Virus record (IMG/VR): IMGVR_UViG_3300022752_003600
Coordinates: 1 to 64,000 of that record
Strand: one strand, 5' to 3'
DNA from: a virus
DNA: 64,000 nt
In this document: positions 1 to 29,314 of the stretch, piece by piece
Position numbering within the stretch: the first letter of the stretch is position 1
Layout: each line of letters begins with the position of its first letter
Program-made: the position numbers and the translations under genes
The notes under the pieces: model-generated
Database searches by the model: none
What the model was told of the DNA's origin: nothing
Seen by the model: only the letters and a program-made list of their open reading frames with translations

Positions 1-1
1 G

Positions 2-1333: not shown

Positions 1334-1382
1334 AAAGAGATCTGATATTATTATATATACATCAACGGGAGAGTGAACAGAG

Positions 1383-5778: not shown

Positions 5779-5783
5779 TTTTA

Positions 5784-7803: not shown

Positions 7804-8450
7804 GGTTTGATTGGTACCTTTTTGTTGTGAGTGACTTTTGTAAGCGGGTCAAGATGCACCTTGAATCCGCACTTGCGCGCGGAAATGCACCAGGAGTAAT
7901 CTTCGCCAAATGGGATGAACACTTCTTTCCCGGTCGCCTCATCAACAATCTTGGCGAACTGAGTATCAAACCACGGGCGAGGCATTGCTTCAAACACCCC
8001 TTGTTTCACGCAGATAAACCCGAACCCAGCACCCATGACTTCCTGTGGTTCAGTCGCCGAAATCATCGCCCTGATGTCGTCTTTTTCGGACATCGGTGTA
8101 AACATTGGAACGCCATGGTCGCTCAAATACAGACCAGAAACAATGTCTAGGTCAGACTTGTAGAGGGCATAGAAGTCAGATGGCTCCCAAGACATGTCGC
8201 TGTCAATCCAAAATATCTTCCTGTATTGGACATTCCCCGACAGCGGAGCGTTGTTGAATGCATCAAGAAAGTCAGAATCCATCGCCGTTGCTTCGCGTGC
8301 CGCCGCAACCCTGGATGTGTATCTATTCGCATAGTGGAAAGAAATGCCGCGCTCGGTCAAAAACGCCATCGTGTTCACAAGGCTGCGCACGTACGCAGAC
8401 TCCATCATTGAGCCCGGAGTCGCAATAATTACATCAACCGATGTTGCCAC
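7800..8450 (-). CDS. GT-A-like glycosyltransferase (paralogue of the 4383-5054 gene)
   Basis: The 216-residue product aligns by eye along its length with the 4383-5054 product: VIIATPGSMMESAYVRSL near the N-terminus, KIFWIDSDMSWEPSDF as the DxD region, VMGAGFGFICVKQGVFE, RPWFDTQF, and GEDYSWCISARKCGFKVHLD. Two diverged copies in one cluster suggest successive sugar transfers with different acceptors. Its 3' end overlaps the next gene by 4 bp, and its 5' end overlaps the sulfotransferase stop by 17 bp, so all are likely co-translated. Confidence 0.75.
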   Translation of the reverse strand: MATSVDVIIATPGSMMESAYVRSLVNTMAFLTERGISFHYANRYTSRVAAAREATAMDSDFLDAFNNAPLSGNVQYRKIFWIDSDMSWEPSDFYALYKSDLDIVSGLYLSDHGVPMFTPMSEKDDIRAMISATEPQEVMGAGFGFICVKQGVFEAMPRPWFDTQFAKIVDEATGKEVFIPFGEDYSWCISARKCGFKVHLDPLTKVTHNKKVPIKP

Positions 8451-9321: not shown

Positions 9322-9407
9322 GCGGTTAAACCTCTTACGTCTTAAAGACAATATTCTGTGTCTAAGGCAATACTAACAAGACAAGTCATAGTATTGTGTA
9401 TCTTAAG

Positions 9408-15280: not shown

Positions 15281-15699
15281 TACTTGATCCTCTTTTCAAG
15301 CTTGTGCGGCGAGTGGTGTGTTCCGTCGAGAAAAGGCACTTTTTCATCCGTTGACCTAAAGATGACGTCGCCGTAGCGCACCGCGACGACCTTTCCGACG
15401 CGCCCGTTGTGCAGCGTGCCGAGCTTTCCTTCATACGCGTCGTGCCTAACCCGCACGATGTCGCCGACTGATATCGCCCCCGGTCTAGCCTCGACCCACA
15501 CTTCTTCTGACGCGTCTTGAAGCAGCGAGTGCGCCACGGCGAGCTTGCTAAGCAGCGACAGCACCTCGGCAGAGTCTTTGTCGGCGTGTTTTAGGTCTTT
15601 CCACGCCTCGAGTAGCGCCATGACTGACGCTCCAACCGACTTTTTTGCCCGCACACTTGCGAGTTGCGCGCTAGCCCAGTCAAGGTCAACGTGTTTCAT
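15280..15699 (-). CDS. Hypothetical protein with KOW/SH3-like C-terminus
   Basis: A 139-residue protein. Residues ~1-65 are helical. Residues ~75-125 read GDIVRVRHDAYEGKLGTL and RVGKVVAVRYGDVIFRS, a β-barrel pattern like KOW/SH3-type nucleic-acid- or protein-binding domains. AAAGGAG stands 5 nt before the ATG. It overlaps the MazG-like gene by 14 bp. Function unknown. Confidence 0.65.
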   Translation of the reverse strand: MKHVDLDWASAQLASVRAKKSVGASVMALLEAWKDLKHADKDSAEVLSLLSKLAVAHSLLQDASEEVWVEARPGAISVGDIVRVRHDAYEGKLGTLHNGRVGKVVAVRYGDVIFRSTDEKVPFLDGTHHSPHKLEKRIK

Positions 15700-16168
15700 C
15701 TTTGCTCCTTTGTGGACATGCTTGTTCTCTGCAGCTTTCAGTGTCGTAGTCGTCGAGCGCTCGTGCGCATAGTTGGCACTTCACGCCGGCGTCAAGGACC
15801 TTGTAGCCTTTCTTTTGGCGGTCTGCGTTCTTTTGCATCTTTGCCAGGTACTCAGCGTTGAGCTCCTCGTCGGTCCCGCCGACGGCGCAGATGATGTTCG
15901 CGACAAAGTGCAATACATCGACGCACTCTTTAAGTACCTCGCGGCGGTCAACATACGGGTCGTCGTGCTGCCAAGGCTTCCACGAGATGGCCTTGCGCAC
16001 CTCGGCGAGCTCATCGTCGATCGCGAGCATGTTCCACCGCAGGTACTCAATGACAGCGCGCAGCGAATCATGGTCATCGCTGTGAAGCTTTGCGTAGTCA
16101 ACGTTGTAGCAGTCTTGCTGCAACTTAGATGTTGCCTCAAGCCACTTTCCGAATAACTTATCAGTCAT
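15686..16168 (-). CDS. MazG/dUTPase-2-fold nucleotide pyrophosphatase (candidate dCTPase)
   Basis: The start is the ATG ending at 16168, with AGGTGA upstream; a TTG three codons earlier is less likely. The 160-residue protein has the all-α NTP-pyrophosphatase signature ExxE (Glu53, Glu56 in DDELAEV) followed by ExxD (Glu81, Asp84 in LKECVDVLHFV), which binds the metal-nucleotide complex. A short Cys-rich C-terminus (CQLC...C...C) may bind zinc. T4 gp56 dCTPase belongs to this fold. Given the hydroxymethylase in the window, dCTP/dUTP hydrolysis is the likely role; substrate is inferred. It overlaps the upstream GT gene by 8 bp. Confidence 0.75.
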   Translation of the reverse strand: MTDKLFGKWLEATSKLQQDCYNVDYAKLHSDDHDSLRAVIEYLRWNMLAIDDELAEVRKAISWKPWQHDDPYVDRREVLKECVDVLHFVANIICAVGGTDEELNAEYLAKMQKNADRQKKGYKVLDAGVKCQLCARALDDYDTESCREQACPQRSKDETR

Positions 16169-17180
16169 GTTTGTCAATCACCTGTCGTAGTGTTTCTAAT
16201 GCTTCTTCTCTAGAAGGTATCTTATCTAGATATTCGCGAGATTGGTGAACCGAAAGTTCGTATGCGTCTAACCTACTCATGTTTTCAATCCTCGCGGCGA
16301 GGACGGCCCATGACGGGCCAGCCGTGTTGCTATACTTCCACTCTGTGACCACAGGAGTACCGACGTTGAGTGACTTCACAAATAGCGGCGACCACCAAGG
16401 CCTCTTGTCGTCGTGAATCGTAAGTATCACGCCGAGTAGCGAGCCGATCTTTTTCTTGACTTCTGCTCCAGACATGTGCTTTTTGTCTTTGATGCCAGAG
16501 TGCGGTAGTCCAAGTGTGTGCGCGATAGACCTTGCCCATCGAGTAGACGTTAGGTCGATCCCCCACGCTCGAGTCCTCTCTCGTTGTAGCGCTTCTGTGC
16601 CAGGTTGGCGCGTGTAGAGCGCGTCAAACGACAGCCCGACAAGCGAGTGCTTTAAGCCGTCTCTTACTCCGACAATGTCGGACGCGTCTTTGTACCACGG
16701 AAGCGTCGGCCACAGTGTCGTAGGCCACTTCGCAGTTAGAAGGCCGAGAGCAGACTCAATGACTCGTTCTTTTGCGCCTTCATCGGCCAGTGCCAAGCTG
16801 TACCCGCTTCTTCGAGAGTAAAAAGGCTTAAACAACTTCTGTGGGTCACGCTGGATCGACCTAAGCCCGGCAAATATCTTTCCAGGCTCAGGAGCGTCAA
16901 TGAACAGCGCGAGTCTTTCATCTCCACGCAGCAACGATGCGACGTTAAGTGCGCCATAGACTCCGTTTGACGACACGCTTAGCGGTGAGGTCAAGCCTAC
17001 AAACACCTTGTCATATTCTGCGAGGTCATCAAGTGTCCATGACACGTCTGCTTCTGCCTGCACGACCTCGTACCCTAGTTGGCGGACAGCGTTTGCCAGC
17101 ATTCCGGCATACGTAAGCGCGCGCTGCGCTACAGATGACGAGTAGTGCTGCGCACTGGTACCAGTGACTAGCACTTTCAC
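16161..17180 (-). CDS. GT-B-like glycosyltransferase of the modification cassette
   Basis: The 339-residue protein starts GTGAAAGTG (MKVLVTGTSAQHY) with a GTGA overlap. The first half alternates β-strands and helices (YEVVQAEADVSW, YDKVFVGLTSPLS, RLALFIDAPEPGKIF) like a Rossmann acceptor domain. The second half has SLVGLSFDALYTRQPGTEAL, GSLLGVILTIHDDKRPWWSP and SLNVGTPVVTEWKYS, matching the position where GT-B enzymes bind nucleotide-sugar. Sequence-level support is moderate. It is the last enzyme of the 16.2-20.5 kb sugar cassette and may glycosylate DNA or a virion protein. Confidence 0.6.
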   Translation of the reverse strand: MKVLVTGTSAQHYSSSVAQRALTYAGMLANAVRQLGYEVVQAEADVSWTLDDLAEYDKVFVGLTSPLSVSSNGVYGALNVASLLRGDERLALFIDAPEPGKIFAGLRSIQRDPQKLFKPFYSRRSGYSLALADEGAKERVIESALGLLTAKWPTTLWPTLPWYKDASDIVGVRDGLKHSLVGLSFDALYTRQPGTEALQRERTRAWGIDLTSTRWARSIAHTLGLPHSGIKDKKHMSGAEVKKKIGSLLGVILTIHDDKRPWWSPLFVKSLNVGTPVVTEWKYSNTAGPSWAVLAARIENMSRLDAYELSVHQSREYLDKIPSREEALETLRQVIDKHD

Positions 17181-17938
17181 GACTGCGCCTCTTCGATCGC
17201 GGCCTCAAACGCCGCGGGGACACCGACATCCATCGCGTTGACGTCAAACAGGTGGGTTGGGTACCTAAGTATGTCTGTTAGATACGGTCCGATCTTCAGC
17301 TCTCCCGCTGTTTGACCGCGTTCTTTCCACGCATATGAAAGTACATTACGTGCGCGGTGCGTGTCCATCACCACAGGACCGCACCACACGACCGCCAACG
17401 GCATCGCCGCTGTAGGATCAACAAAGTCACTGTCTTCTAGAGCAGCGCCTTCAGCAAACTCGTACATCAAGTCTCTGGTAATGCCGTCTGACCACCTGTT
17501 TCTCACTCTAGTAAACCGATGAGCCTGTGTTTTTGGCACCGTGCGCGTGCCGACGGCATTTGAGTTAGAGATCTCAGTTGTTACTGCCATGTCAACTACT
17601 TTTTCTTGGTCCATGATGTTGTCACTCATGAGCAGCATCACACGCTTTGAGTCGCCAAGCGCGTTGATACCGACAAGCGCCGCGTGTCCCGGCCCGCGCG
17701 GCTCGTCTTGGACAACGACCTGTACCCACGACGAGTATGGCTCGAGGACTTTCTTGACCTGCGTGATGTTGTGTGGTGAGACAACTACGATAGTCTTCTC
17801 TGCGCCGGCAGCTGCCGCGTATTCGGCCGCGTAGGCCAGCAACGTGATGCCGTTAACCTCAAGAAGCGGCTTAAAGAACGGCATCGAGTATCCCAGCATG
17901 CGCTGGCCTCTTCCCGCGGCGAGGATCACTGCGTCCAC
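17177..17938 (-). CDS. Sugar-phosphate nucleotidyltransferase
   Basis: I place the start at the GTG ending at 17938 (VDAVILAAGRGQRML), which has AGGAG 5 nt upstream; an earlier GTG at 17959 is in frame. The 253-residue protein has the N-terminal GxGxR nucleotide-binding loop (ILAAGRGQRM), FFKPLLEVNGITLLAYAAEY, an EPRGPGHAALVG segment, and VMLLMSDNIM, the metal-binding Asp. This is the RmlA/GlmU-type NTP-transferase plan. It activates a phosphorylated sugar or alcohol as NDP- or CDP-derivative. It follows the HAD and kinase genes, giving a kinase-to-nucleotidyltransferase order. Confidence 0.8.
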   Translation of the reverse strand: MDAVILAAGRGQRMLGYSMPFFKPLLEVNGITLLAYAAEYAAAAGAEKTIVVVSPHNITQVKKVLEPYSSWVQVVVQDEPRGPGHAALVGINALGDSKRVMLLMSDNIMDQEKVVDMAVTTEISNSNAVGTRTVPKTQAHRFTRVRNRWSDGITRDLMYEFAEGAALEDSDFVDPTAAMPLAVVWCGPVVMDTHRARNVLSYAWKERGQTAGELKIGPYLTDILRYPTHLFDVNAMDVGVPAAFEAAIEEAQS

Positions 17939-18441
17939 GGCCACTCCTGTCGCGCCCACACGAACTTCCAGCCAGCCTCACGCGCCGGTGCCTGCCCGTC
18001 GATCCTGTCATCAATGTAGACTCCAGTCACTGCCACTTTTTTGAGGATCGCGACGCGCTCACTCGTCGACACGCTACCGGCTAATAGCGCGCCTGGCGTA
18101 AGCCCTAAGGCCTCAAGAACGGCCTCGGCCGCGTCGCGAGCGGCTCCGGTGACGTACGTCACGTCGCCAGGAAACACGCGCTCAAGCGCGAGCAAGATGT
18201 CGGCGTACGGAAGCTTGTTCTCGAGCGCCGCGCCTGACTTGATCACGTCTACGTACACGAGCGTCTTCTCACTGTGCACCCTGCGCGCGTCCTCAAGCGA
18301 GCCAACTGCGGACGGAAGCCACATCTGCCACGGATGTCCCCACGCCTCATCTGGCATGTTGACGCCAACTTTCTTGTACGCCTCGCGGACGAGGTGCCTC
18401 GAGTTTACGAGCACGCCGTCAATGTCTGAGCACCACTTCAT
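17926..18441 (-). CDS. HAD-superfamily phosphatase
   Basis: The start is the ATG ending at 18441, overlapping the upstream stop by 4 bp (ATGA); the frame extends to 18696 without coding character. The 171-residue protein begins MKWCSDIDGVLVNS with the DxD nucleophile pair Asp6/Asp8, has TYVTGAARDAAEAVLEAL as the motif II Thr region, a Lys in ILKKVAV, and VYIDDRIDG as the acidic motif IV. It lacks a large cap. It probably dephosphorylates a sugar phosphate or mononucleotide in the cassette. Polynucleotide-kinase-like phosphatase activity cannot be excluded. Confidence 0.75.
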   Translation of the reverse strand: MKWCSDIDGVLVNSRHLVREAYKKVGVNMPDEAWGHPWQMWLPSAVGSLEDARRVHSEKTLVYVDVIKSGAALENKLPYADILLALERVFPGDVTYVTGAARDAAEAVLEALGLTPGALLAGSVSTSERVAILKKVAVTGVYIDDRIDGQAPAREAGWKFVWARQEWPWTQ

Positions 18442-19217
18442 CTGTAAAAACCTCCTGCTTGAAGTGCCTTTGATAGTACCGCAGACACTGCGCCAAGCGA
18501 CGCCGGTGCTTGTCTCTTGACGTAGGGTATCGCGCGGATGACGTGGACTACGGCCCACGCCTGGCCCGCAACAAACAGGTCTTTGTCTGCAACAGCCTGC
18601 TCTACATCTTCGACAGAGTACGCTCTCCACTCGCGCCTGTACTTTGCCTCTTCCCAGCCGTAGGCGCTCTGCAGCATCTTGCCGACGTCGACGCACGGCG
18701 AGTCTGGCACAGTCAGTGTTGCGGGTATCGGGTCAATGAGCACAGGACCAAACCCACGCCTGTACATCACGTTCTCAGCAGTCGCGTCCCCATGCGACAG
18801 CGCCGGTTGCGCCGACAGCGCGGCCTCATAAGCTCGCTCGGCGGCCGCAAGCGCGGCGTCGACATGCGCTGTAGACAGGTGCAGACCGCTGTTTTCTAGG
18901 TTGCGCGTGACCTTGCTGCGCAAAAGCTCACGGGTCTCTTGTGCCGCCGGCTGAGTTGCCGGCGCGTCCCAGACGTACCTACGAAGCAGCGAGACCACGT
19001 CTGCAGCACGCACCTCAGCCGGTGACATGTGGTCAAGCCGCTCCATGACGTAGCCGTCACCCGTCAGCTCAAACACCAGCGGAAGTGCAGGCGAGGTGTT
19101 TTCCATGATCCAGCGCCCTTGTTCGATCGTCTTCTCGACGATCCCACCTCGCTTCGTGACCGTTGCCTTATTGTTCTCGACGACGACGGCTCCAGAGAGG
19201 CCGCTGTTCATGCTCAC
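18438..19217 (-). CDS. APH/choline-kinase-fold small-molecule kinase
   Basis: The 259-residue protein has LSHGDATAENVMYRRGFG with His142, Asp144 and Asn149 as the Brenner-type catalytic loop, and PVLIDPIP with Asp162 as the metal-binding Asp. The N-lobe is short (VTKRGGIVEKTIEQGRW with a candidate ATP Lys). This is the aminoglycoside/choline/sugar kinase fold. In context it probably phosphorylates the sugar or alcohol that the adjacent nucleotidyltransferase then activates, as LicA and LicC do for choline. The substrate cannot be read from the sequence. It overlaps both neighbours by 4 bp. Confidence 0.75.
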   Translation of the reverse strand: MSMNSGLSGAVVVENNKATVTKRGGIVEKTIEQGRWIMENTSPALPLVFELTGDGYVMERLDHMSPAEVRAADVVSLLRRYVWDAPATQPAAQETRELLRSKVTRNLENSGLHLSTAHVDAALAAAERAYEAALSAQPALSHGDATAENVMYRRGFGPVLIDPIPATLTVPDSPCVDVGKMLQSAYGWEEAKYRREWRAYSVEDVEQAVADKDLFVAGQAWAVVHVIRAIPYVKRQAPASLGAVSAVLSKALQAGGFYR

Positions 19218-20461
19218 GAAAACGCGCTCTCGATCATGACCTGAGCTGTTTTCTTTGGGTCGTTTCGCGTGCGCAACACCTCACGGTTGTGGCGCGCGAT
19301 CTCAGCACGCTCAGCGTCGGGAATCTCGAGACACGTCATGAACGCGTCGGCGATCTTTTGGATCAGTTCTAGGCCTTCAGCTTGAACTAGTCGCGACTGC
19401 GTTGGCGACTTTGTGTACCAGTCGAGCACCATCATGCGAAACTGAGGATCTGATAGGTGCCCAGGAACGATGCACATCGCACCAGCGTCTGCGGCCTCAA
19501 GAGATGAGTATTCGACTAAGCCGCGCGCAAACGCGTGCGCGGTCAAGTTCATGTGGACCTTGAACCGTGAAGCAATTGCCGCAGAGTCAGTGTAGTTGCC
19601 TAGGTAGCGCACAAGCGCCTTACCAGGGACACGCGCGTCCCAGGGATACGGCGTGACGATGTTTCCGTCCATGCTTCCGTTAAACTTCTCAGGGTTGACG
19701 ACCTTCGCGTACCTCTTGACCTGCGCTTTAAAGTGATCTTTGAGGATCTCATAGACAATGTATGTCGGCGAAGGCCCTAGGCCGACTGAGCACGATCCCC
19801 AGACCTCAACTGTTACGTCTTCTGGCAAGAAAGCGCCGGCCAGGGCGACGAGTGGCTGTCCCTTGTTGTAGATAAACCGACCAGACGTCCCGACGACACG
19901 CTCATTTGGTATCGGAGCGTCAATGTCAAACTGCGGGATGTACGGCATCGGTCCCTTGATCCACTCCATCGAGGCAAACAAGTCATTGCTGTGCTTCGCG
20001 GACTCTTCGCTCATCGTCACAAGCTTGCTTCCTCGCGACGGAGACTCGAGCAGCTTCTTGACAAACGGGATGTCTTTCTCTGGGTAAAACGAACCGTGGA
20101 GTGCCGTAGTCCACCTCGCCTTCGTGCGAAGCAGCGCGTCTACATACTCTGGTATCGCGTCTTCACCCTTCTTGATCGCCTGCTTGTCGTGCAGCGGAAT
20201 CTTGATCTCTGGAAGCACGACCATGTCATACTTATCCAGTGTCTCGACGATGTTCGCTGTCTTTACGACGACGTCAGGGGCCTCGCTCCACCACCTGCCG
20301 CCCGGCTGTGGCTTGCCCCACGCCGAGCGAGTCTTTCCGCTCTTTGTGAATGACACGACATCACAGTCGTGTCCAAGTTCTTTGAATCCGTGACGAAGCC
20401 TGAACGCCCAGGCAGTCGGTCCTTTGACTCCTGGTTCTGGCTCAAAAACTGCGACTTTCAT
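19214..20461 (-). CDS. GT-B glycosyltransferase of the modification cassette
   Basis: The 415-residue protein starts MKVAVFEPEPGVKGPTAWAF with AGGAGAG 5 nt before the ATG. It has an N-terminal acceptor domain (YDMVVLPEIKIP), a linker, and VVGTSGRFIYNKGQPLVALA, the start of the donor domain, then HMNLTAHAFARGLVEYSSLE and AADAGAMCIVPGHLSD, where GT4-type enzymes bind the nucleotide-sugar (Glu in the EYSSLEA region). It is the first gene downstream of a strong terminator, so it probably opens a separately controlled operon with the kinase, phosphatase, nucleotidyltransferase and second GT. Confidence 0.75.
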   Translation of the reverse strand: MKVAVFEPEPGVKGPTAWAFRLRHGFKELGHDCDVVSFTKSGKTRSAWGKPQPGGRWWSEAPDVVVKTANIVETLDKYDMVVLPEIKIPLHDKQAIKKGEDAIPEYVDALLRTKARWTTALHGSFYPEKDIPFVKKLLESPSRGSKLVTMSEESAKHSNDLFASMEWIKGPMPYIPQFDIDAPIPNERVVGTSGRFIYNKGQPLVALAGAFLPEDVTVEVWGSCSVGLGPSPTYIVYEILKDHFKAQVKRYAKVVNPEKFNGSMDGNIVTPYPWDARVPGKALVRYLGNYTDSAAIASRFKVHMNLTAHAFARGLVEYSSLEAADAGAMCIVPGHLSDPQFRMMVLDWYTKSPTQSRLVQAEGLELIQKIADAFMTCLEIPDAERAEIARHNREVLRTRNDPKKTAQVMIESAFS

Positions 20462-20505
20462 GGTGTCTCTCCTAGTTGTTACGTACCTTGTCTAATTTTG
20501 ACACG

Positions 20506-20543
20506 AAAAGACGCGCCCCGGTGTTACCGGAGCGCGCCTTTTT
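20506..20543. terminator. Bidirectional intrinsic terminator
   Basis: A 13-bp stem (20510-20522 with 20526-20538) and a 3-nt loop, GC-rich with two G·U wobbles, is flanked by AAAAG on the left and TTTTT on the right. Either strand therefore gives a hairpin followed by a U-run. It lies between the SSB-like gene stop and the GT gene start and separates replication from the modification cassette. Confidence 0.8.
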
Positions 20544-20563
20544 CGCGTAAAGTGCGGGCTAGC

Positions 20564-21106
20564 TCAGAACGGAGCTGCCGGAGGCGTGTTTGGGTTAGCC
20601 GCTCCTGCTGCCGCTGCTGCCGGTGCCGGTGCCGGTGCCGGTGCCGGTGCCGGTGCCGGTGCCGGTGCCGGTGCCGGTGCCGGAGACGCCGAAGCGACCG
20701 CAGGGACCGAGTAGTACGACTTGATCTCGTTCTTCTTCTGACCCTGCCAGGTGCGCGTGCCGACCGCCGCGCGGAAGGTGCGACCCTTCAGTGCTGCCTC
20801 GATCTGCGCGTTGGTCGGGTTTGACGTGAAGTACTCACGCGGAAGCCCGAGTGCGGCCATCTTCTTGAAGAACATCCCAAGCGCGTTGGGGTTGTCAGTG
20901 GTGACGACAAGGTTGTCCCAGACAAGCCGCTTGGCGTGCGCGCCGGTTTGAACCTGCGCCTTGACGGCGAACATGGTCTTTCCGGTCTGCGTCACCTTTG
21001 CGACTGCTTCGACGACCTGGAGGTCGTAGTCGCCGTCTGGCAGCGGGTCGTACCCGCCCGTGTCGGCTGCGTCCTTGATGAGGTCGCCCCAGTTGAGTGA
21101 TGACAT
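20564..21106 (-). CDS. DUF669-like single-stranded-DNA-binding protein
   Basis: The 180-residue protein begins MSSLNWGDLIKDAADTGGYD, then PLPDGDYDLQVVEAVAKVTQ and MFAVKAQVQTG, the N-terminal β-barrel start of DUF669/OB-like phage SSBs encoded beside Sak4-type ATPases. Residues ~85-130 complete the domain. The C-terminus is a Pro-Ala repeat followed by Ala/Gly and ends PPAAPF. Host SSBs end in an acidic DDxxPF tip; here the acidic residues are missing but Pro-Phe is kept. It starts 2 bp after the upstream ATPase stop. Confidence 0.7.
   Translation of the reverse strand: MSSLNWGDLIKDAADTGGYDPLPDGDYDLQVVEAVAKVTQTGKTMFAVKAQVQTGAHAKRLVWDNLVVTTDNPNALGMFFKKMAALGLPREYFTSNPTNAQIEAALKGRTFRAAVGTRTWQGQKKNEIKSYYSVPAVASASPAPAPAPAPAPAPAPAPAPAPAAAAAGAANPNTPPAAPF
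20619..20683 (-). repeat. Hexanucleotide array in the SSB-like gene
   Basis: About 10.8 uninterrupted copies of GCCGGT (plus strand) encode a Pro-Ala dipeptide run. Near-perfect identity at the DNA level, including third positions, indicates recent slippage. Copy number should vary between relatives without a frame change. Confidence 0.95.
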
Positions 21107-21108
21107 TG

Positions 21109-21897
21109 TTACTTGCTCGCTTTCTCTGTTGTTGTTGTTGTTTTTTCTTGCTTTTGTTCTGGCCGTGGGCCGAACACTATCTCGAGCATCCTCTCAATTC
21201 CGAGGTCTTGCTGCTCGACAACTTTACCCAGCCGTCCCTGCACGCGCTCGCCGGCCTCGAACTTGCTCGTTCGCTCGACGTACATGCGGCGCGCCTTGTA
21301 CGGCGGCTGCGTCGGGTCTGGGTGTGGGAACTCTTCAACCGTGATCGCACCGAGGACGTCGTAGAAGTACGGCGCCTGGATCGCGAGCTGGCCCTGGAGG
21401 TATGGACGAGCGCGCCCGTCCTGCCCGGTGCGAGACATCGCGGTCAGCACAACCGCCTCAAGAGGCGCGGTCGGGTGCATCGTCAAGTCGCGGAGGTCGC
21501 GAAGCAGCGCGCCCATGTGGCGAAGAAGCTCGCCCCACTGCTGCATCTGCATCTGGTTTGTTCCGGCGATGTTGTCCACGCACTTGACCTGGAGCTCCGA
21601 TACGGAGTCAATGATCAGCGACTTGAACTGGTGACGTCCGAGCTGGAGCCACTGGTACGCCTTCATCATCGTGTCATACTTGGTGATGTTGACGACGCAG
21701 GTGTCCCACGTCCCGTCAGCCACCGGCGGCTCCTCGCGTAGAGGGTCCCAGTACTTAACCGTGATTGGAAGAAAGCGGTGGCCGCCCTCTACGTCGAGCA
21801 TAAGCCGCGGGTACGGTGCTGTGACCGCAAACGTCGACTTGCCGACCTTTGATTCTCCGTACACCATGAGTGTAAGAGAACGTTGGACATTTGTCAT
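21109..21897 (-). CDS. Sak4-like RecA-fold ATPase (single-strand annealing/recombination)
   Basis: The start is the ATG ending at 21897 (MTNVQRSLTLMVYG) with AAGGA about 10 nt upstream; the frame extends to 22032 as overlap with the nuclease gene. The 262-residue protein has Walker A GESKVGKST (14-22), PRLMLDVEGG, and FKSLIIDSVSELQVKCV as Walker B. This is the P-loop order of Sak4 phage recombinases (AAA_24/RecA-like). It probably works with the adjacent SSB-like protein and Cas4-like nuclease in recombination-dependent replication. The C-terminus is a Thr/Lys/Glu tail. Confidence 0.8.
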   Translation of the reverse strand: MTNVQRSLTLMVYGESKVGKSTFAVTAPYPRLMLDVEGGHRFLPITVKYWDPLREEPPVADGTWDTCVVNITKYDTMMKAYQWLQLGRHQFKSLIIDSVSELQVKCVDNIAGTNQMQMQQWGELLRHMGALLRDLRDLTMHPTAPLEAVVLTAMSRTGQDGRARPYLQGQLAIQAPYFYDVLGAITVEEFPHPDPTQPPYKARRMYVERTSKFEAGERVQGRLGKVVEQQDLGIERMLEIVFGPRPEQKQEKTTTTTEKASK

Positions 21898-21899
21898 GT

Positions 21900-22826
21900 T
21901 TACTCGTTTCCTTTGGTCTCTGATTTGTAATAGCCGTACGGGTCGTCGACCACGTACATTTCGCTGATTGCCTGCTCGGCGGCGGAACCGTCGTCGAGCA
22001 GCGGGCATACAGCGAAAAATTGGCACTTCCACTTGCAGTCGCGGCTCGGCCGCGGGTACGCAAGCGTCGTGTGATCTCCGCCCTCTTCAAGCCCTTTGCG
22101 GACCCTGAGGAGGTCAGTGATCGTGCCATGAATCCTATTCCAGAAAGAGCGCAAACTGAAGATGTTGTGCCGCACTTCAATCTGGTCGTAAAACGGCGGG
22201 CGCGCGTTAGCAGTCCGCTTGACCTTACGCAGCATCGTAAAGATGCCGCCGTCACAGCGCTCGGTCTCGTCTTTCTTTTGCGCTTCAAGAAGCATGTACG
22301 TAAGCACTTGCTCGTTCATGTGCGCCATGCTTGTGAAGTCAGCAAACGAGCCGCCGACTGTCTTGAAGTCACGAAACATGCGGACGCCGTCAGCCTTGCG
22401 GCGGACACGCATGTCGAGCTTTCCTTGCAGCTCGACCTGGCCGTCAAGTAGAGTCGCGCTGACGACCTCTTCACTCGAGATGAACTCGAGCTCGGCGTCA
22501 ATGCCGTTTTCTTCAACCCAGCCGAGGTACCCTTCGAGCATGATCCGGCCAAGTTCTGCCTCAGATTGCAGGTCGACCGTGTCGCGGAAGCCCTCAATAA
22601 GCAGCTGCTTGTCGCGTTCGACGAGCTCGGCGTGCGCATCGAGTAGCGGCACCCCGTTTGCGTAGTACTGCTCAAACGCTGAGTGAATGCGCGTGCCGAG
22701 CGCGAGCGGGCCGACCATCTGCTTTTCCCTCGGCTGCAGCCGCCTGAAGTACGTTAGCCACCAGCGGCGCCGGCAGTCTTTAAACGTCTGAAGCTCGCTG
22801 TTAGATACTTTGAGTGGTTGTGTCAT
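21900..22826 (-). CDS. Cas4/RecB-like PD-(D/E)XK exonuclease
   Basis: The 308-residue protein has Cys18 in LQTFKDCRRRWWLTY, then GPLALGTRIHSAFEQYY (motif with His), QGKLDMRVRRK (the first Asp of PD-ExK), and MFRDFKTVGG (D-x-K). The C-terminus carries DCKWKCQFFAVCP. Cys18 plus these three late cysteines form the [4Fe-4S]-binding set of Cas4/AddB-type nucleases. It would process DNA ends for recombination. It overlaps the helicase gene by 4 bp and precedes the Sak4-like gene by 2 bp. Confidence 0.85.
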   Translation of the reverse strand: MTQPLKVSNSELQTFKDCRRRWWLTYFRRLQPREKQMVGPLALGTRIHSAFEQYYANGVPLLDAHAELVERDKQLLIEGFRDTVDLQSEAELGRIMLEGYLGWVEENGIDAELEFISSEEVVSATLLDGQVELQGKLDMRVRRKADGVRMFRDFKTVGGSFADFTSMAHMNEQVLTYMLLEAQKKDETERCDGGIFTMLRKVKRTANARPPFYDQIEVRHNIFSLRSFWNRIHGTITDLLRVRKGLEEGGDHTTLAYPRPSRDCKWKCQFFAVCPLLDDGSAAEQAISEMYVVDDPYGYYKSETKGNE

Positions 22827-24622
22827 AGCTTACCTGCCTTGTCTTCTTTGAGCATGCTGAGCAGCTTGTCCTTGTCTCGGACTATCTGCTCGAAGTTGTC
22901 TGCCTTTGTGTCAAGCACCTGGATCACGCGCTCCTCAACGGTGCCTTCGGTCACGTAGTCAGTGATGATGACGCTGTCGTGGATCTCTGACCCGATGCGG
23001 TGGACGCGGTCAAGTGCCTGCTTGTGGTCGACCAACGACCAGGGACGTTGAAGCATGATCAACCTACGCGCCGCGGTGAGTGTCACGCCTACGCCGCCAG
23101 CCTGCGCCGTAAACAAGATCCACTTCGTCCTGCCTGACTGAAAGTCGTCGATAGACCGCTGGCGCTCTTCTTCATTTTGCGCGCCGGTGATGAGTCCGTG
23201 TTCGATGCCAGCCTTTGTCATGGCCGCGCTTAGCAACTCAATAAGCTGCCGCGACACGGCGCATACAGCGACTGAGTCGCTGCCGAAGTCGCCACTCTCG
23301 ATGTCGTCCATCAGCGCGTCAACCTTGCACGACGGCTCGGCGAGCACCGCTCGCACCTCGCCAGTCTCTGTGTCGGCGACCATGTCAGCATACGAGCTTG
23401 CAAACTGAAGCAAGCGCGTCACCTGTGTAAGCGGGCTTGTCGCCATCAGCGCGGCACCGCTCTCAAGCTCGGCGATCATGAGGTCACGCATCTGCGAGTA
23501 GGCCTTGGCCTGTTTTGACGACATCTCGACGTCACGGCGCTCATTTATGACTGGCGGCAGCCAGTGCAGCACCTTCGCCTTGAGCATGCGCCGCATACGC
23601 GGGTTGATGCTTGCGTAAAACTCCTGCTCCATCTGTGGCTTGACGCCGAGGACCATCATGCCGCCGAACGCGTTAAGCATCGTGTTGATCATGCGGTCGA
23701 TCCAGCGCGTCTTGCTCGGCCACTCTTCTGGAGACAGCCAGTGCAAGATAGGCCACAGGTCGACGACGTCATTCGCGATCGGCGTGCCGGTCAGCGCAAA
23801 CCGGATGTCTGCGTCACCTGTTGCGGCCCACAGCGCACGCGTCTGCTTTGACTTTGGATCCTTTGACCGGTGTATCTCGTCTGCGACGACGGCCTTGAAG
23901 TCAATCGCGTTAAGTTCGCGCGGTGTGACCTCGCACTGCTTTTCAGTGACGCTGTCATCGTGGCCACCCATCGCGACACAACGTTTAAGGGCGATTGAGC
24001 CGTAGGGAGCGAGACGCGAGTGAGCGCGCAGCGACTCCCAGTTGATGACATAGACATCAGCGCCAGACTCAAAAGACTTTCGCCGCTGCGTCGCCGTTCC
24101 AGAGATGACCTCGACATTCACACTTGGCCACCAGCGCGCAAACTCGCGCTTCCAGTTCTTTTTCACCGTGTTCGGGCACACGACCAACGCTGGAAACACC
24201 TGCTCGCCTGCGTCTTGAAGGGCCTTAAGCGCGCGGATCGCCTGCGCGGTCTTGCCCAGGCCTGGCTCGTCGGCGAGCAACGCACGGCGTGCGACCTTGA
24301 GAAACTGGACACCGGCGCGTTGGTGAGGAAACAAGTCTTCATCGCCATCGGCTTCTTCGAGCTCGCGCAGTTTGTTAGCTGGCTCGACTCGAGATGTAAG
24401 CTCGCTGGTCGCCCACGCGGTGAGCGACTGTCCGATGACGAGCTCGGTCTTGAACGTCGACCTCAGCGCGAGGCAGGTAGACCAGCTTAGCGGGACGCTC
24501 CAGACCTTATCTGTCGTCGACCACTTTGCCCCTGGGATGCTCTTGCAAAGCTCCTTGTAGCGCCAGTCGGCGTCAATGCGGATGTGTTTTCCGTCTTTGT
24601 CGATGTCAACTAATACTGTCAA
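22823..24622 (-). CDS. SNF2-family DEAD/H-box helicase
   Basis: The 599-residue protein starts with a TTG preceded by GAGGGA, a clear ribosome site. Residues 1-75 look like the HARP-like β-domain of SMARCAL1-type proteins (WRYKELCKSIPGAKWSTTDK). Then FPHQRAGVQFL, Walker A DEPGLGKTAQ (Lys124), NTVKKNWKREFARWWP, DEIH box VVADEIHRS, ALTGTPIAN (motif III), and the C-lobe QAGGVGVTLTAARRL and QALDRVHRIGS (motifs V and VI). The motif set is complete. HARP-SNF2 enzymes anneal or remodel forked DNA, so replication-fork remodelling is the likely role. Confidence 0.9.
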   Translation of the reverse strand: MTVLVDIDKDGKHIRIDADWRYKELCKSIPGAKWSTTDKVWSVPLSWSTCLALRSTFKTELVIGQSLTAWATSELTSRVEPANKLRELEEADGDEDLFPHQRAGVQFLKVARRALLADEPGLGKTAQAIRALKALQDAGEQVFPALVVCPNTVKKNWKREFARWWPSVNVEVISGTATQRRKSFESGADVYVINWESLRAHSRLAPYGSIALKRCVAMGGHDDSVTEKQCEVTPRELNAIDFKAVVADEIHRSKDPKSKQTRALWAATGDADIRFALTGTPIANDVVDLWPILHWLSPEEWPSKTRWIDRMINTMLNAFGGMMVLGVKPQMEQEFYASINPRMRRMLKAKVLHWLPPVINERRDVEMSSKQAKAYSQMRDLMIAELESGAALMATSPLTQVTRLLQFASSYADMVADTETGEVRAVLAEPSCKVDALMDDIESGDFGSDSVAVCAVSRQLIELLSAAMTKAGIEHGLITGAQNEEERQRSIDDFQSGRTKWILFTAQAGGVGVTLTAARRLIMLQRPWSLVDHKQALDRVHRIGSEIHDSVIITDYVTEGTVEERVIQVLDTKADNFEQIVRDKDKLLSMLKEDKAGKL

Positions 24623-24648
24623 CTTAGTCCCTCAATCATTCGTCATTC

Positions 24649-24657
24649 ACTGTACCA
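24649..24657 (-). promoter_or_regulatory. Candidate extended -10 promoter, TGGTACAGT
   Basis: In the 92-bp gap upstream of the SNF2 helicase, the minus strand reads TGG-TACAGT. It sits 27 bp upstream of the TTG start, leaving room for the GAGGGA ribosome site. It would drive the helicase, nuclease, Sak4 and SSB genes as one operon ending at the terminator at 20.5 kb. Confidence 0.45.
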
Positions 24658-24714
24658 CATACTAGGAAGATTTTGATGATCTCCAGCAAATATTTTTCTT
24701 AGTACATAAGCTCT

Positions 24715-25185
24715 TTACTCAAGAAGTACTCTTGGCACCCAGCCGGTCTTGGCTAGCCGCAGCAGGCCGTGGCGCATCGCGTCAAGCGCGTGTCCGCCAC
24801 CGCCGACGTGCCAAAAACCGAGCTTCTTCAACGCGTCGTTGGTAAACAGCTTCTTGGCATCAGATGGCGACTGAAAGTAGATCTTTTCGGGGTCAAGACC
24901 GCTGCTGTGCACTACGTACTTCATGATGCCGATCTGCTCAAGGCTAAACGGAGCCTGCGAGTTCTTGATTGTCTGCGCGTTGATGACGAAGCGCTCACAC
25001 ACGACGTCTATCGACGCTCCGGCCTCTTTTGCGGCCTTGATCTCGTCACTAAGAGCCATCGCGAACGCATATGGCCCAAGCTCGCGAGACACCAATAGCG
25101 CCGGCGACTCTCCAGCGTACGTGATGACGGCGAACCCTGTGGTCTTGCCAGGGTCGATCGCGATGACTGTTTTTGCTTGTTTCAC
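24715..25185 (-). CDS. RuvC-like Holliday junction resolvase
   Basis: I choose the GTG ending at 25185, which overlaps the polymerase stop as GTGA and has GGGGAG about 10 nt upstream. The 156-residue protein has VIAIDPGKTTGFAVI with Asp11, DVVCERFVIN with the second acid, and GGGGHALDAMRHGLLR with the C-terminal His/Asp pair. These are the RNase-H-fold catalytic positions of RuvC. It would resolve branched replication or recombination intermediates before packaging. The last gene before a 92-bp gap. Confidence 0.8.
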   Translation of the reverse strand: MKQAKTVIAIDPGKTTGFAVITYAGESPALLVSRELGPYAFAMALSDEIKAAKEAGASIDVVCERFVINAQTIKNSQAPFSLEQIGIMKYVVHSSGLDPEKIYFQSPSDAKKLFTNDALKKLGFWHVGGGGHALDAMRHGLLRLAKTGWVPRVLLE

Positions 25186-27002
25186 TTGTACTTGTCTCCC
25201 CATGTCTCGAGCGGGCCGTCGATTCCCGCCGTCAGCGGGACGTTCCAACCTTCAGTTGTAGTCATGCAGTCTTTTACAATGTGCTTGATCTCTTCTGCGT
25301 CCTTGCGCGGCGCGTTGAGCACGATTTCGTCGTGCACCGGCACGATCAGCAGCTCGGTGAGGTCCGCCTGGTCGAGCTTGACGAGGTTTGCTTTGAACAC
25401 CTCGGCCGCGCCGCCCTGGATCAGGTAGTTGACCAGCGTGTACACGCGGTCCTCATCGCACGGCAGGCGGCGGCCGGTCCATGTGTAGACGTATCCCTGT
25501 CCCTCTTCACGGACACGGCGCATCCCGGCGTCTTCAATCTGCCGCTGAAACATCGACATCCCAGGGTACCGCCCGTCGAACGCGTCTGACACCTCTCTCA
25601 TCTGCGGCTCGGCGACGCCCGCGGTGAGCGCCTGCTTTGCGACGCCGGCGCCATACAGGCGACCGTAGACCGTGCCCTTGATGAGCGCACGGCGCTTGTC
25701 TGACTTTTGCATTGTCGGGTCTCTATAGATCTCTCGGCCGATCTCGGTAAACGGGTCAGACCCTGTTGCGTCGGCGCGGTTGAACAGTGTGATGAGGTTT
25801 GGGTCGTTTGACAGGCTCGCAAACATGCGGAACTCGACCTGGTCGAGGTCCGACGTGATGATGACGTGGTCATCATCCTTAGGCAAGAACGCGCGGCGGA
25901 CGACGTCGTCTCCTTTTGGCAGAGTCTGAAGCGCTGGGTTTTGGATCGACATGCGGCTCGTGCGAGCGCCGAGCGTCTTCACAGACGGGTGGACAAACCC
26001 GCCGACGTTTTCGCTCAAGAAGTTCGAGAAATATGTGTTGGCGAGCTTGTCGGCCTTGCGCTGCTTCAGGACTGTGTCGGCGAGCGTTGACACTTCCTCA
26101 TTTCCGTTGATCTTGAGCAGCTTGAGTTGATCTTTGGTGCATGATTTTTGCCCAGTCGGCGTAAACTCGGTGATCTCGGCGCCGAGGTCCTCGAACAAGC
26201 GCACGAGCTGCTGGTTGCTCGTGATCGACACACCGCCATACTTGCCCTTGGCCCACTCTTTGACGGTTGCTGTATATGCGGTGAGCTCGTCGTACTTTTT
26301 CTTCGAGTACTCAAGGTCGACGCGTGCACCGTTGATCTCCATGCGCGTCACGATCTTTCTCGCGGCCATCTCGAGCTCGTAGGCGCGGCTATACGGCTTG
26401 CCAGGGCCGCATTTTTCGTAGAACATCTCCCACAGGCGCATCGTCAGCACCGTGTCGAGCGCGCCGTACGACCAGTACGGCTGAAACGTCACCGGAACAG
26501 TGCCCCACGTCCACCCGTTCTTTGCGAGCTCTGTGTCTAGCGTGTCTTGTAATGCGACGGCGCGGCCGTCGACGTGCAGTGCGGCAAGCCGCTTAAGCGC
26601 CCCCGATCCAAGCGGGTCAATGATGTGCGCCATGATCATCGTGTCGTGCGCGCGGCCCCACGGCAGGCCCCAGCGTGACTGTACGTCAAACCAGCGGGCC
26701 TCGAACGCGATGTTGTGGCACACGATCGGGCCGTCAAACCTGTCCATGGCCTCGTAGAAGACGCCAGACCACTCTCCCCACGGGATCGCCCAGCCCTGCT
26801 GCCCGTCGCCAACCTGTACGAGGCGCAGTCGACCGTGCCACGGAGACAGCGCGTGTTCTCTAGGGTTGCCTGGAAGCTCACCGGTCTCAGTGTCAATCGC
26901 GATCGCGCCGTGCGGCCTACGCTCACTGAGCCAAGCGACGAATTCAGACGCCTTCTGCGCTGAGTCTACCAGTGAAAGCTTGACGCTGGAGAGGTCGCTC
27001 AC
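25182..27002 (-). CDS. Family A DNA polymerase (PolA) with 3'-5' exonuclease
   Basis: Residues ~30-190 are a DEDD exonuclease: IAIDTETGE (DxE at 37-39), VCHNIAFEARW, and YGALDTVLTMRL. There is no 5'-nuclease domain. Polymerase motif A is SDLDQVEFR (Asp385), motif B is RRALIKGTVYGRLYG (Arg438, Lys442, Tyr446, Tyr450), and motif C is VPVHDEIVL (His557-Asp-Glu). Tyr446 aligns with E. coli Phe762. At 606 residues it is a typical phage PolA. It would replicate the phage genome. It overlaps the deaminase stop by 4 bp and the resolvase start by 4 bp. Confidence 0.95.
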   Translation of the reverse strand: MSDLSSVKLSLVDSAQKASEFVAWLSERRPHGAIAIDTETGELPGNPREHALSPWHGRLRLVQVGDGQQGWAIPWGEWSGVFYEAMDRFDGPIVCHNIAFEARWFDVQSRWGLPWGRAHDTMIMAHIIDPLGSGALKRLAALHVDGRAVALQDTLDTELAKNGWTWGTVPVTFQPYWSYGALDTVLTMRLWEMFYEKCGPGKPYSRAYELEMAARKIVTRMEINGARVDLEYSKKKYDELTAYTATVKEWAKGKYGGVSITSNQQLVRLFEDLGAEITEFTPTGQKSCTKDQLKLLKINGNEEVSTLADTVLKQRKADKLANTYFSNFLSENVGGFVHPSVKTLGARTSRMSIQNPALQTLPKGDDVVRRAFLPKDDDHVIITSDLDQVEFRMFASLSNDPNLITLFNRADATGSDPFTEIGREIYRDPTMQKSDKRRALIKGTVYGRLYGAGVAKQALTAGVAEPQMREVSDAFDGRYPGMSMFQRQIEDAGMRRVREEGQGYVYTWTGRRLPCDEDRVYTLVNYLIQGGAAEVFKANLVKLDQADLTELLIVPVHDEIVLNAPRKDAEEIKHIVKDCMTTTEGWNVPLTAGIDGPLETWGDKYK

Positions 27003-27481
27003 TTAGAACTACGTTCTGGAATCGCGCGGACTTCAAGTCCGCACTTCTTTAGGTATACGATAACCTCGCTTGGCTTACGGTGAAAGTCGACATCGCGCAC
27101 AACCATGACCACACGAGATACTCCAGAGTTCGACACAAGCTTCGCGCACTGTATGCAGACCGCGCCTGTCACGTATAGTGTTCCGCCTTCGACCTGGGAC
27201 CTGTCGACATAGAGCAGCGCGTTTGCCTCGGCGTGTATCGCGGGACAGGCGTCGTATGTATTGTCCAACGGTGCGTCGCCCTGCGCACGCGGGCACCAGA
27301 ACGAGCACGGTCGCTCGTCTGGCCACGTCGCCGCCGGGCCGTTGTACCCAGTCGCGCAGATGCGTTGGTTCTTTGACACGATAACAGCGCCGATCTGCGC
27401 CCGCGTGCAGCGCGATCTGCGAGCGACGGCCTTGGCGACGTTAAGCCACGTCTCGTCCCAGTTCGTGCGGTCAGGAAGCAT
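26999..27481 (-). CDS. Deoxycytidylate deaminase
   Basis: The start is the ATG ending at 27481 (MLPDRTNWDETWLNVAKAV); upstream residues are shadow of the hydroxymethylase gene. The 160-residue protein has HAE (His83, Glu85) and CxxC (Cys109, Cys112) for the catalytic zinc, and PCSFWCPRA (Cys59, Cys63), the second zinc site of dCMP deaminases. The usual PCxxC is VCxxC here. It turns dCMP into dUMP and so competes with, or balances, dCMP hydroxymethylation. It overlaps the hydroxymethylase gene by 11 bp. Confidence 0.85.
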   Translation of the reverse strand: MLPDRTNWDETWLNVAKAVARRSRCTRAQIGAVIVSKNQRICATGYNGPAATWPDERPCSFWCPRAQGDAPLDNTYDACPAIHAEANALLYVDRSQVEGGTLYVTGAVCIQCAKLVSNSGVSRVVMVVRDVDFHRKPSEVIVYLKKCGLEVRAIPERSSK

Positions 27482-28328
27482 TTTTCTCGTTCTTTGCGAT
27501 CGCGCTACGCATCGCCGAGGCGTACCACCTGTCCTCAGCCGGCAGAGACTCGTACACAGCGTCGTCGTGCGCGGCGTCGAGGCACTTGACGGCGCGCGCC
27601 TGGATCGCGCTCCACGACCGGGCGACAAAGACGGGTATCGGCTTGCTCGGCTCCGACGCGTAGGACAAGTTTTCCGCGGCGGCAAAGTTGTTCTCATAGA
27701 CATGCAACGAGCCGACGTGGTGGCCGTAGGTGCCTGGCTCGATACCGAGGATAGACGCGATCGCGACCTGCACGCGTGTGAACTGGAAGAAGTCATAGGC
27801 TGCGCCAAGCCACACGTCGTTTGAGCGCATGTAGACGCTCATGTTGAGCCTGTTCTTTCGGACTCGAAACTGGTGAAGTATCGTGCACGGGTAGTCGCGC
27901 TTCTTCTCGAGCATGTCACGCTCGGGATTCCAGATGGTGACGACCGCCTGACGCGACTCGGGGTCTTTCTTGAGGCGGTCGACCACGACCTCGTACTGGC
28001 CGAGCGTCCGCGTTCCGTACGAGCCGTGAAACTGCCCGTCATCCTCGGTGTAGTTCGCAAACTGCGGGCCGACGGCGACTACCGTCTTCGGCCGCGACAC
28101 GCCGCCGAGCAGCTGGCACGCCTCAACCGCACCGATCCCTGAGACGACGTTGCGGCCGACGCCGACCGGCAACGTATTGTATACGTCCTCGATGAAGATC
28201 ATCGCGTCCTCGATCTCGCGCGTCTTCATGCCGCGCGGCGCGGCCTCCTCGCCGTAGCGAAGGACGTGCCTGACGAGGTCAACGTATCCGTTGACGCCGT
28301 CTTGTATGTGTATCACCTTAGTGTCCAT
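27471..28328 (-). CDS. ThyA-fold enzyme, dCMP-hydroxymethylase-like
   Basis: The 285-residue protein has the thymidylate-synthase fold: GSYGTRTLGQYEVVVDRL, DPESRQAVVTIWNPE, the catalytic loop YPCTILHQF with Cys148, MRSNDVWLGAAYDFFQF, and HHVGSLHVYENNF. In ThyA the last-but-one motif has an Asn (E. coli Asn177) that recognises uracil. Here it is Asp179, as in T4 dCMP hydroxymethylase, where Cys148 and Asp179 carry the same numbers. MRSNDV and VGSLHVY are also T4-like. The likely reaction is dCMP plus methylene-THF to hydroxymethyl-dCMP. GGAGG lies 7 nt before the ATG. A CMP-type or altered ThyA activity remains possible. Confidence 0.75.
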   Translation of the reverse strand: MDTKVIHIQDGVNGYVDLVRHVLRYGEEAAPRGMKTREIEDAMIFIEDVYNTLPVGVGRNVVSGIGAVEACQLLGGVSRPKTVVAVGPQFANYTEDDGQFHGSYGTRTLGQYEVVVDRLKKDPESRQAVVTIWNPERDMLEKKRDYPCTILHQFRVRKNRLNMSVYMRSNDVWLGAAYDFFQFTRVQVAIASILGIEPGTYGHHVGSLHVYENNFAAAENLSYASEPSKPIPVFVARSWSAIQARAVKCLDAAHDDAVYESLPAEDRWYASAMRSAIAKNEKNAS

Positions 28329-29314
28329 GGGTCTACCTCCATGTGTGTTGTGGATAACCGTTCAATCGCGCGGCCGTACTCATAGCCGTCGCGGTGGTGG
28401 AACCTGCGCACGTACTGCGGGTGCGGGACGACGTTGACCAACTCGCGCGGTATCGACGCGTCTTTGAGGCTCTTCTCGGCCATGCGCCCGAGCGCAACTA
28501 TCCGCGGTCGCCCTATGGTTGCCCACAGCAACGACATCCGCGAACCACAAAGCTCGGTGCCGTTGACGATACCGACGTTCTTCCAGAACGGATCTGGGAG
28601 GTGCGTGAGCAGGTAGTCACCTGAGTTGCCGCGCGCGGGGAAGAACGGAAGTATCGGTCCGTTAGGGTCATTGCGCCTGTCACCGACGAGCAGCACGCTT
28701 GGCCTTGCCGGGCCGATGTACTCAGGAAACTGCGCAACATTCTTGACCTGTGCCTCGCGCTCTTTTGCGATCGTAAGCATGCGGTCTGCGAGAGCAGGCA
28801 ACGCTGACATGTCATATGGATCCGGCGAGACGACCTCGACGCGGGCCGCGTTGCGCATACCGAAGTCATACAGCTCGCATATCTTTTCAAGTTCGGACGT
28901 CTTGACAAAGTCGTCACCGCGTACGCCGACACGCTCGACGATGACGTCAAGCGGCTGCTTCATCACAAACTGCACAGCGCCACGCGACAACAACATGAGC
29001 TCAACGAGCCGCCAGCCGCCCTTGCCGAGCAGGCCGTATTCGTCCGTGCATGTGTGCGGACGCTTGATCGGCGCGTACGTGACCTCGCCCCAGTGCCACC
29101 TGTCGGCGATCACGATGTAGCCGTCTGTCCAGTTGACGTTTGCGACCGAAGTTGCCCACTCATTCAAGACCCACGCCCTGGTCTCCTCGGCCGGCCTACC
29201 CATGTGGTACGTCACAACCTCGCGGTCGGAAAACATGGAGGTCGCGCGCTCGATGAGCGCGGACACGACCGAACTCTTGCCTGAGCCGTCAGGGCCTTCA
29301 ACAACTATAAACAT
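28313..29314 (-). CDS. dNMP kinase fused to a UDG-superfamily-like domain
   Basis: Residues 1-190 are a thymidylate/dNMP kinase: VVEGPDGSGKSSV (P-loop 7-15), VIADRWHWG (DR motif), and a short lid. Residues ~205-310 read PSVLLVGDRRND, FPARGNSGDYLL, IVNGTELCGSR, RPRIVALGRMAEKSL and VVPHPQYVRRF, the strand/motif order of uracil-DNA-glycosylase-superfamily proteins. The catalytic acid of the first loop is not evident. Placed directly before the hydroxymethylase gene (16-bp overlap), the kinase probably phosphorylates the modified dCMP; the UDG-like domain may bind a base. AAGGA precedes the ATG by 5 nt. Confidence 0.75.
   Translation of the reverse strand: MFIVVEGPDGSGKSSVVSALIERATSMFSDREVVTYHMGRPAEETRAWVLNEWATSVANVNWTDGYIVIADRWHWGEVTYAPIKRPHTCTDEYGLLGKGGWRLVELMLLSRGAVQFVMKQPLDVIVERVGVRGDDFVKTSELEKICELYDFGMRNAARVEVVSPDPYDMSALPALADRMLTIAKEREAQVKNVAQFPEYIGPARPSVLLVGDRRNDPNGPILPFFPARGNSGDYLLTHLPDPFWKNVGIVNGTELCGSRMSLLWATIGRPRIVALGRMAEKSLKDASIPRELVNVVPHPQYVRRFHHRDGYEYGRAIERLSTTHMEVDPWTLR

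Follow-up and report, generated by a model that had tools for sequence, protein, structure and literature searches.

The window analysed here, that is, the whole 64-kb stretch of DNA, comes from a freshwater phage and covers nearly all of its IMG/VR entry (IMGVR_UViG_3300022752_003600), a linear record of 64,305 bases that is itself probably incomplete. It holds a group of genes predicted to replace cytosine in phage DNA by 5-hydroxymethylcytosine (hmC) and, probably, to glycosylate the latter. The original prediction, made from the letters of the window, proposed a T4-style cytosine hypermodification pathway in an actinophage; the actinophage assignment is borne out by two WhiB genes in the window and by the near relative DSL-LC01, for which Actinomycetia were predicted as hosts (PMC10611076). 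The genes that concern us are the following (GT, glycosyltransferase; dNMP, deoxynucleoside monophosphate; hm-dCMP, 5-hydroxymethyl-dCMP).

13526..14773, minus strand: cytosine-C5 DNA methyltransferase homologue, accompanying the module
15686..16168, minus strand: all-alpha NTP pyrophosphatase, homologue of the T4 gp56 dCTPase-dUTPase (Pfam dUTPase_2/MazG-like)
16161..17180, minus strand: GT2, a GT-B glycosyltransferase found in every relative, whether hydroxymethylase-positive or -negative
17177..17938, minus strand: sugar-1-phosphate nucleotidyltransferase-like protein, cassette member
17926..18441, minus strand: HAD phosphatase, predicted sugar-phosphate phosphatase, cassette member
18438..19217, minus strand: APH-family small-molecule kinase, predicted sugar kinase, cassette member
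19214..20461, minus strand: GT1, a GT4-type GT-B glycosyltransferase in the variable slot, candidate hmC-DNA glycosyltransferase
26999..27481, minus strand: dCMP deaminase of 160 residues, general nucleotide supply
27471..28328, minus strand: predicted dCMP 5-hydroxymethylase of the ThyA fold, 285 residues, ATG start, with Cys148, Asp145, Asp179, Ser169, Glu69, Tyr104, His209 and Tyr211
28313..29314, minus strand: dNMP kinase (thymidylate-kinase-like P-loop at the N-terminus, predicted hm-dCMP kinase) with a C-terminal domain

The product of 27471-28328 matches the Pfam family Thymidylat_synt (E 2.9e-26) and contains both the MRSNDV and the VGSLHVY motifs. As had been claimed, it carries Cys148 and Asp179 under the same numbers as the T4 enzyme, and in the MAFFT alignment these residues, together with Asp145 and Ser169, coincide with their T4 gp42 equivalents. 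The alignment is genuine, but that the numbers agree as well is a chance effect of protein length. The alignment further equates Glu69, Tyr104, Arg126, His209 and Tyr211 with T4 Glu60, Tyr96, Arg123, His216 and Tyr218. Scanning of IMG/VR yielded 112 close relatives, and across the 40 dereplicated relatives on which conservation was judged the catalytic residues, including Cys148, Asp145 and Asp179, are invariant, so that the reported substitution of Asp for the uracil-reading Asn of ThyA extends to all of them. In T4 dCMP hydroxymethylase the mutations D145N, C148S and D179N abolish the production of 5-hydroxymethyl-dCMP (PMC6400193); Asp145, the acidic residue (Asp or Glu) three positions ahead of the Cys, activates the water that yields the hydroxymethyl group and is required in T4 for adding water rather than hydride, and Asp179 sets cytosine over uracil (literature including PMC6400193). 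Asp was also found at the latter position by MetaGPA in ThyA-family proteins from cytosine-modified contigs (PMC8670742).

Among proteins of solved structure, CMP 5-hydroxymethylases of the MilA type come closest to the window enzyme, at E 8e-24; the best true ThyA follows at 2e-19. In a tree comprising 25 proteins the window enzyme belongs to a pyrimidine-hydroxymethylase clade (99/99) that leaves out both E. coli ThyA and the enzyme from DLP4. Within this clade it joins the enzymes of Gordonia phages (100/98), apart from T4 gp42, which forms a separate branch with the enzyme of Micrococcus phage Kurnik (100/100). The proposed T4-style character is thus to be kept as far as the residues are concerned, by which the enzyme would work like gp42, and to be given up as regards descent from the gp42 branch. 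With residues, tree and controls all in agreement with the proposed identity, we regard the 27471-28328 product with high confidence as a dCMP hydroxymethylase.

The linkage of this enzyme with its neighbours was assessed on relatives gathered by means of a RecA-like gene, without use of the hydroxymethylase, which gave 38 dereplicated loci with both flanks. The hydroxymethylase, the kinase and the gp56 homologue are all present in 20 of these loci and all three absent from the other 18, in line with the association originally proposed (20/20 against 0/18). A second glycosyltransferase gene (GT0 or GT1) accompanies the hydroxymethylase in 19 of 20 loci and occurs in none of the 18 negative ones, and the C5 methylase was found in 17/18 positive and 0/17 negative loci. 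The linked genes occupy separate places around the replication block and were gained or lost together. A GT2-family gene is present in 38/38 loci, hydroxymethylase or not; in a number of sister phages (L153, L187, L190, L204, L216, L223 and others) it stands, single and intact, in the same slot, while the hydroxymethylase, the kinase, the gp56 homologue, the C5 methylase and the second GT are absent. No ThyA-family gene was detected in the larger records of the hydroxymethylase-negative group. In the 20-kb loci, GC-containing 4-mer palindromes are less avoided in the hydroxymethylase-positive phages (0.955 versus 0.883 in the negative sister group, p 0.0025), GATC and GCGC being among the strongest contrasts, and AT-only palindromes show no difference; we give this little weight, as it rests on one evolutionary contrast and on a difference in GC content.

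As to the nucleotide-metabolizing genes, the MazG/dCTPase-fold enzyme of the original prediction proved homologous to T4 gp56 by hhalign (probability 97.6%, E 3e-12), by BLAST (E 6.6e-9) and by a profile that recovers gp56 in T4 (E 5e-9), and the enzyme is predicted to remove dCTP from the pool. The dNMP kinase fusion reported next to the hydroxymethylase is likewise present, with a kinase part and a conserved C-terminal domain of about 135 residues, the uracil-DNA glycosylase superfamily being weakly matched by 3 of 26 members (best E 0.011). The kinases of Kurnik (178 residues) and Gordonia phage Sixama (198 residues) have no room for such a domain. The dCMP deaminase, which had been counted as part of the pathway, does lie nearby and is found in 20/20 positive loci; however, it is also kept by 2 of the 18 hydroxymethylase-negative phages and hence is not dedicated to the module. 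The C5 methyltransferase homologue retains the catalytic Cys and Glu, with ENV changed to ECV (ESV in Kurnik and the Gordonia phages). In the hydroxymethylase-negative phage G024 (record of L216) a C5 methyltransferase match interrupted by TGA was seen at 24395-24952.

The glycosyltransferases lie in a slot bounded by a gene resembling those of single-stranded DNA-binding proteins and by the gp56 homologue, and the contents of this slot are discrete. Among 53 dereplicated loci of the hydroxymethylase type, 40 contain two GT2-family genes and seven have the arrangement of the window, i.e. GT1, APH-type kinase, HAD phosphatase, nucleotidyltransferase and GT2; rarer contents are a GT, a UDP-galactopyranose mutase (Pfam E 5e-30) and GT2 (three loci), GT2 alone (two) and GT1 with GT2 (one). 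The slot type changes at least eight times on the tree, five times if the GT1 type is set against the rest. The two GT-B genes of the original prediction are thus in place, while the kinase-phosphatase-nucleotidyltransferase set between them had been overlooked. The nucleotidyltransferase resembles sugar-1-phosphate nucleotidyltransferases, one of them from a heptose pathway. Scans of bacterial genome contigs retrieved no relative of the cassette kinase and, for GT1, one short match of 52 residues. We tentatively propose that this actinophage family replaces C by hmC and exchanges complete sugar cassettes at a single constant position, in which case close relatives could bear different DNA sugars. 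Those in which the mutase is flanked by two GTs would have galactofuranose, and the phage of the window would have the sugar that its APH-type kinase, HAD phosphatase and nucleotidyltransferase activate. In a search of the open-access literature, neither galactofuranose nor sugar chemistry of the cassette type was found reported for DNA.

Both glycosyltransferases have the GT-B fold in the predicted models. The GT1 model (predicted local distance difference test score, pLDDT, 76) resembles TarM (Z 22.7, root-mean-square deviation (rmsd) 3.6, 324 residues aligned) and T4 alpha-glucosyltransferase (Z 21.0, 3.9, 317), and a homologue of GT1 with 35% identity is present in Kurnik. The GT2 model (pLDDT 93.4) has a glycosyltransferase of phage HY126 as its top Foldseek match, SenB (Z 17.5, rmsd 3.8, 270 aligned) and T4 beta-glucosyltransferase (Z 17.2, 4.0, 297) being tied. 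Profiles of GT1 and GT2 retrieved nothing credible from PDB sequences, the T4 glucosyltransferases included, and the GT2 profile retrieved nothing from the T4 genome. The acceptor, as far as such models go, is not given by the fold. Since GT2 is present in all 38 loci regardless of the hydroxymethylase, it is not tied to hmC; its invariant residues are the same in phages without a visible source of hmC, and no residues were found that separate GT2 of hydroxymethylase-positive phages from that of negative ones. GT2 may therefore do something other than hmC glycosylation, and GT1 (or GT0) is the better candidate for an hmC glycosyltransferase, because it tracks the hydroxymethylase. Of the two glycosyltransferases originally proposed to act on hmC, the fold of both is upheld by the models, whereas hmC specificity could not be sustained for GT2.

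The module can be read as the following pathway. The ThyA-fold enzyme would convert dCMP to 5-hydroxymethyl-dCMP, the adjoining kinase would begin its conversion toward the triphosphate, and the gp56-type pyrophosphatase would destroy dCTP, so that the phage polymerase would put hmC where C would be; we infer that the replacement of C is complete. A variable-slot glycosyltransferase, here most likely GT1, would add a sugar to the hydroxymethyl group, either while the DNA is being replicated or afterwards, DNA being the supposed acceptor. The kinase, the HAD phosphatase and the nucleotidyltransferase beside GT1 probably make the activated sugar, presumably acting in this order, by analogy with the heptose pathway, with a phosphate placed on the anomeric carbon, the other phosphate taken off and a nucleotide put on. 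That the DNA contains hmC is in our opinion very likely, and that a slot glycosyltransferase modifies it is probable; hmC DNA, probably glycosylated, is the best explanation overall, and we consider it a likely one.

Several observations weigh against this explanation. T4 Ser94 and Arg124 are replaced by Gly and Gln in the window enzyme, as in most non-T4 homologues. On the backbone tree a single change suffices for the presence-absence pattern, and the 38 loci, representing one evolutionary event, do not give independent counts of linkage, so that Fisher p-values calculated on them are nominal. The C5 methyltransferase tracks the module, which is odd if a hydroxymethyl group already fills every C5. 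The GT-B fold seen here also modifies proteins, lipids and small molecules, and GT2 is retained without the hydroxymethylase, so the glycosyltransferases of the slot need not act on hmC. The phage might accordingly make hmC DNA and use its glycosyltransferases and sugar genes for decorating a virion protein, the host wall or a small molecule, its DNA bearing plain hmC or another group. Such an assignment is favoured by the persistence of GT2 in sisters lacking the hydroxymethylase, any other ThyA-family gene and a Tet_JBP domain above the cut-off, as well as by matches of the GT-B models to teichoic-acid, lipid and selenosugar glycosyltransferases. However, the second GT and the sugar genes are confined to the hydroxymethylase phages and adjoin the gp56 homologue, and the glycosyltransferases, gp56 and the methylase are kept together in three lineages of Gordonia phages; we therefore hold a different acceptor to be rather unlikely.

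Another possibility concerns the ThyA-fold enzyme itself, which could be an Xp12-type dCMP methyltransferase, giving DNA with 5-methylcytosine. Asp179 alone is compatible with this activity, since a true ThyA whose Asn is mutated to Asp methylates dCMP (PMC8670742). As a stand-in for the Xp12 group we took the DLP4 enzyme, whose assignment to 5-methylcytosine rests on the kinship of DLP4 to Xp12. It combines Asp179 with Asn145, at which position the window enzyme has Asp and E. coli ThyA has Leu, and a dihydrofolate reductase (DHFR) gene is located two places off. A search that did recover the DHFR of DLP4 detected none in the record of the window, in those of 16 relatives, in Kurnik or in DSL-LC01. 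With the tree also grouping the window enzyme with the hydroxymethylases, a methyltransferase is highly improbable. Still less credible is an SPO1-type dUMP hydroxymethylase supplying a thymidine hypermodification: the enzyme does stand, as a weakly placed sister (86/81), beside the dUMP hydroxymethylases of SPO1, Det7 and LuckyBarnes, but these three carry Asn at both 179 (as does ThyA) and 149, where it has Asp and Thr, and its module includes a gp56-type dCTPase homologue. The phylogenetic check suggested in the original prediction thus set the protein clear of true ThyA and at the same time near the SPO1-type enzymes, a placement named there as refuting; Asp179 and Thr149 nonetheless favour dCMP.

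Other identities were rejected. A thymidylate synthase proper is ruled out by Asp179, Asp145 and the tree, and a dCMP methylase by the DLP4 control. MilA is known to differ at the sites choosing ribose versus deoxyribose (PMC5175136), and Ser169 and Arg126 of the window enzyme, as in dCMP enzymes, in place of Ala176 and Lys133 by which MilA accommodates CMP, indicate a deoxy substrate and speak against a ribonucleotide (CMP) hydroxymethylase. A TET route through 5-methylcytosine finds no Tet_JBP match above the cut-off in the records searched. In one related phage, G006 (record of L103), a ThyX gene (36923-37525) occurs alongside the hydroxymethylase, which therefore need not serve as the thymidylate synthase of that phage. 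In Brevibacterium phage LuckyBarnes, glycosyltransferases labelled as HMC glucosyltransferases adjoin the dUMP-type (Asn179) enzyme, which suggests, as far as residues tell, 5-hydroxymethyluracil rather than hmC.

One of the closest known systems is that of T4 (gp42, gp1 and gp56 with alpha- and beta-glucosyltransferases, giving glucosyl-hmC), which combines a dCMP hydroxymethylase, an hm-dCMP kinase, a dCTPase and GT-B glycosyltransferases near replication genes, each of which has a predicted counterpart in the window. In contrast to T4, the window hydroxymethylase lies on a different branch, the kinase is of the thymidylate-kinase type and carries an additional domain, and the phage has its own sugar-activation genes and a C5 methyltransferase in the module. 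RB69, with arabinosyl-hmC, and Shewanella phage Thanatos, with pentosyl-cytosine, share T4-type pyrimidine genes and phage-coded glycosyltransferase and sugar-activation genes in a plastic region, TH1_063 of Thanatos being a UDP-xylose pyrophosphorylase (PMC6024577, PMC12838424); these are, however, T4-like phages of proteobacteria, whereas here we deal with actinophages whose sugar genes are either the APH-type kinase, the HAD phosphatase and the nucleotidyltransferase, or a UDP-galactopyranose mutase. The predicted pathway would work in the manner of T4, RB69 and Thanatos; the different enzyme branch, the kinase fusion, the exchangeable sugar sets and the C5 methyltransferase, for which the model does not account, are new with respect to these systems. 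MilA of the mildiomycin pathway is the closest solved relative by sequence and has the equivalents of Asp145, Cys and Asp179. The 5-carbamoyloxymethylcytosine phages of MetaGPA (PMC8670742) resemble the window in an Asp-type ThyA homologue, a deaminase and a pyrophosphohydrolase on cytosine-modified contigs, but have a carbamoyltransferase where the window phage has glycosyltransferases.

Counterparts of most of the set are held by cultured Gordonia and Micrococcus phages, which makes the prediction testable now, at once in the case of Sixama and GodonK, both phages of Gordonia terrae. Gordonia phages GodonK, GMA2 and Sixama encode the hydroxymethylase, the kinase, the gp56 homologue, the C5 methylase and at least three GTs; the hydroxymethylase and the kinase (with the deaminase) lie upstream of polA, and the GTs, the gp56 homologue, the C5 methylase and WhiB are clustered elsewhere in the same order. 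Kurnik has its T4-branch hydroxymethylase, the GT1 homologue and two GT25-like proteins, as well as a different pyrophosphohydrolase and a C5 methylase of the same family. In all four phages the genes carrying dCMP hydroxymethylase residues were deposited as "thymidylate synthase" or "hypothetical protein"; by their residues, such "thymidylate synthase" genes of cultured actinobacterial phages would be dCMP hydroxymethylases with a supporting module. Phages with the module probably have DNA resisting ordinary restriction enzymes, and the sugar slot offers a natural series in which one could ask what sugars are workable on DNA and what host defences lie behind the exchange; it may also yield new enzymes for hmC labelling.

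The combination of Asp145 and Asp179 was also noticed in Pelagibacter phage HTVC200P, Stenotrophomonas phage AXL3, Pseudoxanthomonas phage PW916 and Bacillus phage G; the PW916 enzyme is annotated as deoxyuridylate hydroxymethyltransferase, a label contradicted by its residues. Elsewhere in the window, positions 1-9400 have a GC content of about 43-52%, versus about 58% in the remainder, and hold glycosyltransferase-like genes, a sulfotransferase (8434-9351) and a DUF6065 protein. Two proteins encoded at 188-3488 consist of many near-identical repeats (NLWVAGG...RTSTDAITW) and are possibly involved in host contact. Finally, the region 51572-60673, amid structural genes, is occupied by one open reading frame of 3033 amino acids.

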